Source: Polaribacter sp. (GTDB lineage Bacteria; Bacteroidota; Bacteroidia; Flavobacteriales; Flavobacteriaceae). From it: a stretch of 64,000 bases of DNA. The notes beneath the pieces are model-generated. The model ran no database searches. It saw only the letters and a program-made list of their open reading frames with translations, and was not told the DNA's origin. Location of the stretch: the NCBI GenBank assembly GCA_023254055.1, contig JALQYN010000052.1, positions 38,831 to 102,830 on the forward strand, in the 5' to 3' direction. The position numbers and the translations under genes are program-made. How positions within the stretch are numbered: position 1 is the first letter of the stretch; every line of letters begins with the position of its first letter. Of the stretch, positions 50,432 through 54,005 are shown piece by piece.

Positions 50432-51631
50432 TTAAAAATGAATATCTACTTGTAATCTGTACATTAGTTGGTTGGTTTTGTTTACCACATCTAAATAACT
50501 AACATCAGATTGAACTTTTAATTTATGACCAACAATGTATTTAGACAACCCAATTGTATATTGATTTTCTGCTCCTTTACTTAAAAATTGATCATAGGTG
50601 ACATTTGTATATCTACCCGAAAGTTCCCAATTATTCTTAAATAAATAACCACTCATTAAATTTAAACTATTTCCTGTTAACACTTTGTCACCGGTTAAAG
50701 AATTGTCAGAATTTTTAGCTAAAGGATCTGCAGCGTCTCTAAAAGCGTATTCTCCCATAAAAGAAAACCCTTTGTATTTTAACATGGTATCAACAAATAA
50801 TGTAGTGATGTTGGTTTGATAAAAACCAGTGTCATTAGTCATATAAGAGCCTTGGTTACTTCTGTTTTTTACTGCATTGTTATTTAAATCATAACTAGCA
50901 GCAAAAGCCCATTTTAAATTTTCTTCTCTTTTTAAATCACCTCCACTATAATCTCCTTTACTGGTAAAATCACCGAAAGGTAAAAGCTCAACTCTAGTTG
51001 TATATTGTAATCCACCTAAATTTCCTGTTGTAACGTTTCTACCTTCACCTTGAGCAATAGAAAAAGCTTCTTTGATTATAAAGTTATCAGAAACATTAAA
51101 ATGATGTCTTAATTGTACACCCATATCTCTGTCTATATTAAATCTGCTGTTTAATAAAGATCTATCAACCAATTGCATGTTTGCAGAAGAAATAACCCTT
51201 TCTCTATTTCCAGGTAGTTTTGTTTGACCCACCCATAAAACAAAATTTTCATGAAAATTCCATTTAAGAACTGCATCTAAAATATATCTTGGGGCATTAC
51301 TTGTATAAACTGAAGCTCCAGAAATATCTCTATTAGAAAGCCCTAATTCTATCTTATATTTTAATTTTGGTGAAAAAGCGAAACCGCTAAATTTTAATCT
51401 GGCTCTTCTAACCAACATTGAAGTTTCTTGGTCAGATAAGCCGCTACCGTTAGAGCTCCAAGTTGAAGTTCCTAAAAATTGCATTCTTGCTCCAATATTC
51501 ATTGACCAAGAATTGTCTTTTCCTTTTAAATCAAAAAGACCTTTTCCAAATTTTGGTGCATTTGATTCTTGCGCACTTAACGTTTTGATAAACAGCACTA
51601 AAAAAACTGCTGTAGTTAAATAAGTTTTCAT
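50432..51631 (-). CDS. Phosphate-selective porin O/P family outer membrane protein
   Basis: Signal peptide, FGKGLFDLKGKDNSWSMNIGARMQFLG, beta-barrel pattern. Confidence 0.88.
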   Translation of the reverse strand: MKTYLTTAVFLVLFIKTLSAQESNAPKFGKGLFDLKGKDNSWSMNIGARMQFLGTSTWSSNGSGLSDQETSMLVRRARLKFSGFAFSPKLKYKIELGLSNRDISGASVYTSNAPRYILDAVLKWNFHENFVLWVGQTKLPGNRERVISSANMQLVDRSLLNSRFNIDRDMGVQLRHHFNVSDNFIIKEAFSIAQGEGRNVTTGNLGGLQYTTRVELLPFGDFTSKGDYSGGDLKREENLKWAFAASYDLNNNAVKNRSNQGSYMTNDTGFYQTNITTLFVDTMLKYKGFSFMGEYAFRDAADPLAKNSDNSLTGDKVLTGNSLNLMSGYLFKNNWELSGRYTNVTYDQFLSKGAENQYTIGLSKYIVGHKLKVQSDVSYLDVVNKTNQLMYRLQVDIHF

Positions 51632-51665
51632 CTAAGTAATAGTTTTTGTCGCTACAAATAACCAG

Positions 51666-51698
51666 CCTTAATGTTAACTTAATGTTACTTTATTGTTA
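51666..51698 (-). promoter_or_regulatory. Candidate Pho box: three tandem 11-bp repeats
   Basis: Plus strand CCTTAATGTTA / ACTTAATGTTA / CTTTATTGTTA. Confidence 0.65.
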
Positions 51699-51708
51699 TT
51701 TTAGCAAC

Positions 51709-51737
51709 AAAAAAAGCTGCCTTCATATGAAGGCAGC
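51709..51737 (-). terminator. Perfect 22-nt palindrome followed by U7 on the minus strand
   Basis: GCTGCCTTCATATGAAGGCAGC then TTTTTTT (minus strand). Confidence 0.85.
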
Positions 51738-51795
51738 AGGATGTACTCATTAATAAAGTCGACAAAAACTAAATACTTAATGAAATACACTAACT
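51709..51795 (-). ncRNA. Candidate about 85-nt small RNA upstream of the porin gene (5' end approximate)
   Basis: TAACTTTG -7 element at 51799-51806 (minus), intrinsic terminator at 51709-51737, no ORF; contains UAGUUUUUGUCG complementary to the porin leader. Confidence 0.45.
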
Positions 51796-51959
51796 AATCA
51801 AAGTTATACTGCAAATATGTACTAGTCATATTATTTGAACGTATATGAAATATTAAATAATTATAAACAATGAAGGCTTAACGTTACTTTTTCATTAAGA
51901 AAGTTAAAATGTAAACCCATCATCTTTGATTAAACAGCTAAAAACACCTTTGCTATTTT

Positions 51960-54005
51960 ATGTCTATCAAAAAAAAATCTAATCACTTAATTTCAGAAAC
52001 AAGTCCCTATTTATTACAGCACGCCTACAATCCTGTAGACTGGTTTGCCTGGAGTTCAGAAACTTTAGCAAAAGCAAAAAAAGAAAATAAGCTGTTGCTT
52101 GTTTCTATTGGGTATTCTTCTTGTCATTGGTGCCATGTGATGGAAAAAGAAAGTTTCGAGAATGATGACGTTGCATCTGTAATGAATCATCATTATATAA
52201 ATATAAAAGTAGACCGAGAAGAGAGACCTGATATTGATCAAATTTATATGAATGCGGTTCAATTGATGACAGGAGCTGGTGGCTGGCCGTTAAATTGTAT
52301 TGCTTTACCAGATGGACGACCTGTTTGGGGTGGCACTTATTTTAAGAAAGAAGAATGGACAACAATCTTAAATCAGATTGGAGACTTGTATCAAAAAAAT
52401 CCGGAAAAAGTTATTGAGTACGCCGAAAAGCTAACAGAAGGAATTCAACAATCTAGTCTCATAACTTTGAATACAGAAAAAACCGTTTTCACAAAAGAAT
52501 ATGTAAACGAAACTGTAAAAAAATGGAGCATCTATTTTGATGAAGAATTGGGTGGATTTAACAAAGCTCCGAAATTTCCAATGCCAAATAATTATCATTT
52601 CTTGTTAAGACATGCCTCTCAAAACAAGAATGAGTCACTTTTAAAATATGTTAATACAACGCTAACAAAAATGGCACAAGGCGGTATTTTTGATCATGTT
52701 GGAGGTGGGTTTTCTAGATATGCTGTAGATACAAAATGGCATATTCCTCATTTCGAAAAAATGCTTTATGATAATGGTCAGTTGGTAAGTTTATTTGCTG
52801 ATGCCTTTTTAATTACAAAAAACCTATTGTATAAAGAAACGGTATATGGCACACTAAAGTTTATAGAACGTGAAATGTTAGATGCTTCAGGTGGATTTTA
52901 TACAGCCATAGATGCAGATAGTTTAAATGATAAAAGTGAATTACAAGAAGGTGCTTATTATGTTTGGAGAAAAGAAGAGTTACAAATTCTTTTAAAGAAT
53001 GATTTTGATATGTTTTCTGATTACTACAATATAAATTCATACGGTTTTTGGGAGCACGGTTTGTATCATTTAACCAAAAATAACTCTGATGAAAATTTTG
53101 CAAAAAATCATGGAATATCTATTTCAGAAATAAAAAAGAAAGTTGCTCTGTGGAAATCTATTTTATTAAAAGAAAGAGAGAAAAGAACATATCCAAGATT
53201 AGACGATAAAATACTAACCTCTTGGAATGGCATGATGTTAAAGGGATATGTAGATGCCTATCGTGTTTTTAATGATCAACATTTTTTAGATGTAGCCATA
53301 AAAAATGCGCATTTTTTAGAAATGCAAATGCTTAAAGAAGATGGAACTTTATATAGAAATTATAAAAACGGACAAGCCTCAATAAACGGATACTTAGAAG
53401 ATTATGGAACGGTTATTGATGCTTTCATTTCTTTATACGAAGTAACTTTAGATGAAAAATGGTTGATGCTTTCGAAAAATCTAACAGATACTTGTTTTGA
53501 CTATTTTTTTAATTCATCGACGAGTATGTTTTATTTTACATCAAATAAAGATTTAGAATTAATTGTTAGAAAAACTGAAACAGAAGACAATGTAATGCCT
53601 TCTTCTAATTCGATGATGGCTAAGAATTTATTTAAACTAGGTCATTTTTTTGAAAATGAACACTACATAAACACTAGCAAACAGATGTTGAGCAATATGA
53701 CTAGTACAATTCAGAATTTTGGCTCTGCATATTCTAATTGGCTAGATTTATATAGTAATTTTTCAGAAAACTATTTTGAAATTGCTATAAGTGGTGAGAA
53801 CGCAAAAGAAAAACTTCTAGAACTTAATCAAAAGTATATTCCCAATAAATTAATTTGCGGAAGTGAAACAAAAAGTAATTTGCCTTTATTAAAGAATAGA
53901 TACGTAAAAAATAAAACACAACTATATGTCTGTGTAAATAAAATATGTAATTTGCCTACAGAAAAAACAAACGTTGCAATGAATCAGATAATTGAAAAAG
54001 TATGA
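51960..54005 (+). CDS. Thioredoxin domain-containing protein (DUF255/YyaL family)
   Basis: [59 protein letters not shown]. Confidence 0.95.

Follow-up and report, generated by a model that had tools for sequence, protein, structure and literature searches.

A candidate small RNA of Flavobacteriaceae, encoded upstream of a porin gene and predicted to pair with the 5' end of the porin mRNA

Small RNAs (sRNAs) that repress porins are exemplified in enterobacteria by MicF/ompF, MicC/ompC, and MicA/ompA, in which the RNA is encoded apart from its target and makes use of Hfq. The antisense RNAs of plasmids and transposons, such as CopA, RNA-OUT, and Sok, are transcribed from the strand opposite their target. 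To our knowledge, hardly any sRNA-target pair is known in the Flavobacteriaceae. In Flavobacterium psychrophilum, the structured sRNA Rfp18 has been tied to metalloprotease mRNAs via its third stem-loop (PMC9723704), and sRNAs of Bacteroides act by base pairing in Bacteroidota (e.g. PMC7366714, PMC11697453).

The locus described here lies in a window of 64,000 nt of Polaribacter sp. DNA, which is the whole stretch analysed, and the host genome is a 2.25-Mb assembly that is 85.5% complete. Judged from sequence features, the minus-strand segment 51709-51807 is an sRNA gene with its own structure, and it very probably represents a previously undescribed, dedicated RNA switch on phosphate uptake (Table 1). 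Like MicF, MicC, and MicA, it would be a short RNA with a rho-independent terminator pairing at the translation start region of a porin mRNA, but it is encoded directly upstream of one evident target and would pair with the 5'-terminal nucleotides of that target. With CopA, RNA-OUT, and Sok it shares one dedicated target and the predicted recognition of an mRNA start by a loop, whereas its gene is on the same strand as the target and upstream of it, and the complementarity spans 11-14 nt. It resembles Rfp18 as a flavobacterial structured sRNA with predicted mRNA pairing and differs from it, by description rather than by sequence comparison, in pairing through the second hairpin with a porin leader. 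The Bacteroides sRNAs belong to another class of the phylum and apparently have other targets (PMC7366714, PMC11697453).

Table 1. Coordinates of the features of the locus in the window.
Feature	Coordinates	Strand	Basis or remark
PiT-type phosphate transporter gene (PHO4), 755 aa	48084..50351	-	Pfam PF01384, E 1.1e-27
Porin gene (Porin_O_P), 399 aa, predicted sRNA target	50432..51631	-	Pfam PF07396, E 2.8e-09
Predicted 5' UTR of porin mRNA, start G51650	51632..51650	-	Predicted from -7 box position; complementarity stops there
Target site GACAAAAACUA in porin leader	51640..51650	-	Kept or lost together with the sRNA
-7 element GTTATTTG of porin promoter	51655..51662	-	GTTcTTTGCAG conserved right before the leader, 164 loci
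Pho-box-like direct repeat GTAACATTAAGTTAACAT of porin promoter	51671..51688	-	7-4-7 repeat at fixed position in 141/164 porin promoters; genome pattern search
Predicted sRNA gene, ~99 nt, three hairpins	51709..51807	-	Fold z-score, matches of covariance models R2/R3, covariation; 5' end predicted
Hairpin SL3 and U7, intrinsic terminator of sRNA	51709..51737	-	Perfect 22-nt palindrome and T7; CUGCC...GGCAG and U-run conserved
Hairpin SL2 of sRNA, anti-leader sequence in top loop and inner stem	51741..51790	-	Predicted fold; outer helix covaries
sRNA pairing region UAGUUUUUGUC	51761..51771	-	Nearly invariant; complementary to and covarying with leader
Hairpin SL1 of sRNA	51791..51806	-	Predicted fold; all 5 helix pairs changed on both sides across genus
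-7 element of sRNA promoter, CATATTTG	51812..51819	-	TTTG conserved there in alignment of relatives; fits flavobacterial consensus
Degenerate 11-bp-phased TTAA-type direct repeats (Pho-box-like) upstream of sRNA promoter	51839..51867	-	Consensus of 125 sRNA promoters; weak in window copy
Divergent DUF255/thioredoxin-like gene	51960-54005	+	Other flank of 328-bp intergenic region

The sRNA unit is bounded by a conserved -7 box and an intrinsic terminator, which was read from the sequence as the palindrome GCTGCCTTCATATGAAGGCAGC (51716-51737) and a T7 run after it (51709-51715). Because this minus-strand terminator is flanked by the porin gene and the divergent DUF255/thioredoxin-like gene, it can serve only a transcript starting within the 328-bp intergenic region. 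The flavobacterial -7 consensus TAnnTTTG is placed at -12 to -5 (PMC9723704). The preliminary description had assigned the sRNA promoter to TAACTTTG (51799-51806) and given the RNA a length of ~85 nt. The former sequence is present, but it is unconserved in relatives, in which an ATTTG ten bases upstream is conserved instead, so that the box was moved to CATATTTG. With the known flavobacterial spacing, the start is then predicted near 51807, and the length therefore becomes ~99 nt. The predicted fold had a z-score of -5.57, and none of 200 shuffles was as stable (51709-51809). No convincing open reading frame was found in any frame of the unit; a small peptide was rejected, since one frame is open at the end without a conserved start and the remaining frames hold stops. 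A search of Rfam 15 in E-value mode with the window sequence and six family loci gave no match over the RNA.

Porin orthologues of the same genus were gathered porin-first, blind to the RNA, from Polaribacter and close relatives as judged from named records. Their loci carried TAGTTTTTGTC followed by G or A, a CTGCC..GGCAG terminator with T-run, and the leader GACAAAAACTA, in the same order in most of them. RNAalifold on a plain MAFFT alignment recovered the terminator alone because the stems shift between sequences. Covariance model R2 was therefore built from 18 sequences (a gap-poor subset), and 75 loci were realigned with it. Among 71 distinct genus sequences in this alignment, 93.5% of cells pair, against a shuffled mean of 82.0, and 20 of 28 helix pairs changed on both sides. 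Cells with two-sided change numbered 171, compared with 40.4 +/- 4.9 after shuffling, and none of 500 shuffles reached 171; these covariation counts are inflated, as the R2 alignment was fitted to the structure. When the partner columns were slid by one to three positions, pairing fell to 55% or less. By eye, SL1 alternates between unrelated perfect stems (AAUC/GAUU, ACCUC/GAGGU, and GUCUUAAGAC). In loci outside the genus of the window (L191-L262), SL1 frequently takes the form of a perfect palindrome (GTCTTAAGAC or GTGTTTAAACAC, for example) close to the predicted start and ~50 nt upstream of the seed, where it could double as a DNA operator.

The complementarity between the RNA and the porin leader consists of TAGTTTTTGTCG (51760-51771) and its exact complement CGACAAAAACTA (51640-51651), which ends 8 nt before the ATG at 51631. 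The palindrome, the U7 tract, and this 12-nt complement had all been noted in the preliminary description and were found again at the same positions. When the 328-bp intergenic region was shuffled 2000 times with its dinucleotides preserved, a 12-nt perfect inverted repeat appeared somewhere in 1.7% of the shuffles, and one with an arm within the final 35 nt in 0.15%. The exact 12-mer occurs only twice in the 2.25-Mb genome, as the sRNA arm and as the leader arm. An insertion element as the origin of the inverted repeat was rejected, each arm being single-copy in the genome and the repeat standing in the same place in ~160 porin loci. The duplex of the predicted sRNA with the 5' end of the porin mRNA was computed at -28.9 kcal/mol, a value matched by 3 of 500 shuffled sRNAs, and the porin ranked first of the 54 ORF starts in the window for duplex energy. 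A second helix between leader ACUUA and sRNA UAAGU, which had been proposed earlier, was present in the computed duplex, which in the window runs on through UAAGUA:UACUUA into the AUG (AUGAAA).

Comparison of porin loci showed that the sRNA complementarity to the translation initiation region is maintained by compensatory change. Covariation of the two arms across relatives, which the preliminary description had put forward as a check, was thus found. At position 2, the pairs were U-A in 146 loci, A-U in 7, C-G in 2, and U-G in 5, with four mismatches, and the position 1 pairs also vary (U-A and G-C). Longer exchanges were seen as well: CAG pairs with CUG in L318, AAG with CUU in L320, L363, L372, L380, L387, and L388, UUUG with CAAA in L328, and GAC with GUC in L100, and the lengths of the U/A runs are 4/4 in L038, L049, and L073 and 6/6 in L378. 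Over 198 porin loci scored by an automatic rule, 158 had both the sRNA and the leader site, 31 neither, 8 the leader only, and 1 the sRNA only (p 1e-27). The rule missed RNAs that the model found in L104, L106, and L363, which are at least three of the eight leader-only loci; it also missed the RNA in L108, and the leader-only locus L330 is one whose sRNA copy is displaced (L401). With a porin tree (N-terminal ~135 residues, FastTree), ten independent pairs differing in the sRNA were compared; in an average of 7.7 of them the leader had changed in the same direction as the sRNA, and in 0 it had changed in the opposite direction (p 0.008). Single positions offer too few independent pairs for significance alone, and at positions 1-4 and in run length, opposite-way changes almost never occurred. 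Sequence comparison thus shows the RNA gene, its structure, the pairing with its co-evolution, and the linkage to one target. A chance inverted repeat, or elements acting as DNA alone such as protein binding sites, would find some room in an AT-rich region in which such a repeat arises somewhere with a 1.7% chance; being contradicted by RNA-type helix covariation, the conserved terminator, and arms co-changing in many genera, this explanation is extremely improbable.

The position of the complementarity relative to the predicted start of the porin mRNA bears on how the two arms would meet. The porin consensus GTTcTTTGCAGCGACAAAAACTAAtA and the -7 spacing put +1 at the G of GACAAAAACTA, and the pairing would therefore involve the eleven nucleotides at the 5' end of the mRNA; from this start, GACAAAAACUA fills half of the predicted ~19-nt leader. 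By eye, the base at -1 (C/U/A) showed no covariation with the RNA base opposite (G/A), as expected if it is untranscribed. The preliminary description had proposed an sRNA, with an attenuated leader as the alternative. In the latter case, a transcript from the upstream promoter would stop at the hairpin or read through, with the upstream arm folding on the leader, an arrangement suggested by the shared strand, the terminator between the arms, and the constant short distance in most genomes. However, the conserved porin promoter sits between terminator and leader, the complementarity ends at the predicted porin start with a -1 base that does not covary, and in one locus (L401, G473:C1:1370900-1375400) the sRNA gene and its terminator are found 3.1 kb away from the porin, whose leader site (L330) is kept, with opposite-strand carbonic-anhydrase-like and SulP-like genes in between, named from sequence by eye. 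In this single case, the separation means that the sRNA must act in trans, if it acts at all. Of the two earlier options, the sRNA is supported by arm covariation, conserved structure, co-occurrence, and co-loss, and the cis-acting attenuator appears highly unlikely.

Both promoters carry repeats upstream of the -7 box. The lag-11 self-match was 0.461 for the sRNA promoters versus ~0.31 after shuffling, and 0.439 for the porin promoters versus ~0.30, and, taken as groups, both sets of promoters have a pair of 7-bp half sites spaced by 11 bp ahead of the -7 box. Such 7-4-7 repeats at 11-bp spacing are typical of OmpR/PhoB-type regulators. As both promoters share the 11-bp-phased repeats, one regulator would switch on both, and by analogy this common regulator is probably PhoB. 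Among nine sites of the porin-type repeat examined in this genome, none preceded a classical pho gene and one preceded a TonB-dependent receptor gene. An exact porin-type repeat, TTAACATTAAATTAACAT, was observed before the TTTTTGCAG promoter of a TonB-dependent receptor gene (L392, G000:C71:58067-58084), and this receptor is a possible member of the same regulon.

Taken together, we hold with considerable confidence that the locus encodes an sRNA with its own promoter and terminator that pairs via hairpin 2 with the 5' end of the porin mRNA and serves as a trans-acting translation brake switched on together with the porin. The sRNA would be transcribed from its own promoter and ended by its own terminator, and UAGUUUUUGUC in hairpin 2 would bind the porin mRNA at its first eleven nucleotides, GACAAAAACUA; the sRNA would act in trans, on mRNA that initiates at the separate promoter of the porin. 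Ribosomes would then find their landing site covered by the duplex as far as the start codon, which would prevent translation of the porin. The leader, ~19 nt long and A-rich, has no Shine-Dalgarno sequence, so the most straightforward consequence would be that initiation is occluded, and repression of translation by the sRNA is likely on this model. The PiT gene starts 80 nt downstream of the porin gene, and the two possibly share one transcript, in which case coupled PiT translation may be blocked too; PiT is also found downstream of a porin or porin-like gene in L256, L407, L409, and L416. With one regulator, probably PhoB, switching on porin and brake together, the circuit would be an incoherent feed-forward loop. 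A trans-acting RNA might instead activate or protect the porin mRNA, the 5'-end duplex shielding it from decay; pairing from the extreme 5' end of the mRNA, as predicted, would suit such a role, and co-expression with the target fits it equally. This is quite unlikely, given that the window duplex covers most of the A-rich leader up to the AUG, which would normally block initiation, and that the porin mRNA, folded on its own, is predicted to leave its 5' 15 nt unpaired, so that there is no strong inhibitory structure over the leader to open.

Genome searches showed how closely the brake candidate follows the porin. Model R2 found one sRNA copy each in 75 of 148 genus genomes; all copies adjoin the porin except one (G081), and in G140 the neighbour is a porin pseudogene (L108) whose leader site has decayed while the sRNA persists. 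Model R3 found the sRNA in 162 of 351 Flavobacteriaceae genomes and in 125 of 237 genera, and among the genomes with a listed porin position, 103 of 109 matches lie directly upstream of the porin on the same strand. Across the 351 family genomes, 137 had both sRNA and porin, 25 the RNA only, 47 the porin only, and 142 neither (Fisher p 1e-30, a value that overstates independence because the genomes are related). A pattern scan of public genomes found carriers including Lacinutrix, Winogradskyella, Algibacter, Gelidibacter, Psychroserpens, Maribacter, Eudoraea, Muriicola, Arenibacter, Tenacibaculum, Bizionia, and others. There was no match outside the Flavobacteriaceae in the order sample, and none in the heavily sampled genus g148, which we tentatively take to be Flavobacterium.

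The link between sRNA and porin is not absolute, because a few loci keep the leader or the sRNA alone. The leader is kept without a recognised adjacent sRNA in L036, L294, L317, L319, and L324, and the sRNA without an intact adjacent porin in L199, L403, and Bizionia echini (L253). The latter loci would agree with a wider sRNA regulon in which the porin is merely the oldest, neighbouring target. Against it, a scan of 251 family genomes for the promoter-plus-leader pattern typically gave a single match per genome, located at the porin; the remaining matches are irregularly spaced, resembling by eye the chance hits of a reversed-pattern control, and the exact promoter-plus-leader search of these genomes revealed no conserved additional targets. 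With just two exact 12-mer copies in the window's genome and porin-less genomes mostly without the sRNA, the wider regulon is rather unlikely. Second copies with intact sRNA structure, downstream of which neither a leader site nor a porin was recognisable, were observed in G293 and Gelidibacter salicanalis (L199/L185 and L239).

In several rearranged loci, the gene under the leader has changed. Another Porin_O_P protein stands under it in Mariniflexile (L256), L405, L407, and L415, and in L413 the gene encodes a protein that matches no Pfam family, taken as barrel-like from its relative in L404, with a phosphate-binding-protein-like gene (PF12849) downstream. The porin is gone in Bizionia echini (L253/L187), where PiT comes next after the sRNA. 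L403 and L410 have likewise lost the porin and kept sRNA and PiT, the leader site being found in neither; there the sRNA either has another role or is decaying. G312 contains two sRNA-leader units (L162, L264), one before an intact porin and the other before a truncated porin-like start, after which an HD-domain-like protein is encoded. A trans-acting RNA directed at the leader explains the displaced sRNA of L401 and the swapped porin genes under the same leader better than a cis attenuator does. Whether sRNA and leader form a portable control cassette is, in our judgement, evenly balanced; this would be a dedicated, Hfq-independent antisense brake under the same phosphate regulator as its target. 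Its leader site would have outlasted at least two replacements of the channel gene, involving a non-orthologous Porin_O_P and a different barrel-like protein, next to a PiT or phosphate-binding-protein gene.

By its working principle, a base-pairing sRNA on a porin mRNA is of a known kind. What sets this RNA apart is the same-strand linkage with one co-evolving target, the predicted use of a hairpin loop to recognise 5'-terminal mRNA nucleotides, the retention of the leader through gene exchange, and an apparent lack of Hfq, which a PF17209 search did not find in the window's genome (85.5% complete). An earlier description of this RNA was not found in the open-access literature. The RNA has been conserved across roughly half of the genera sampled, and only one target is obvious, with arms that covary between the two, which makes sRNA control without Hfq and Shine-Dalgarno sequences directly testable. 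It also provides a new RNA family for annotation. Flavobacteriaceae play an important part in breaking down algal matter in the sea, and the RNA would offer a handle on how phosphate uptake across the outer membrane is tuned in these bacteria.
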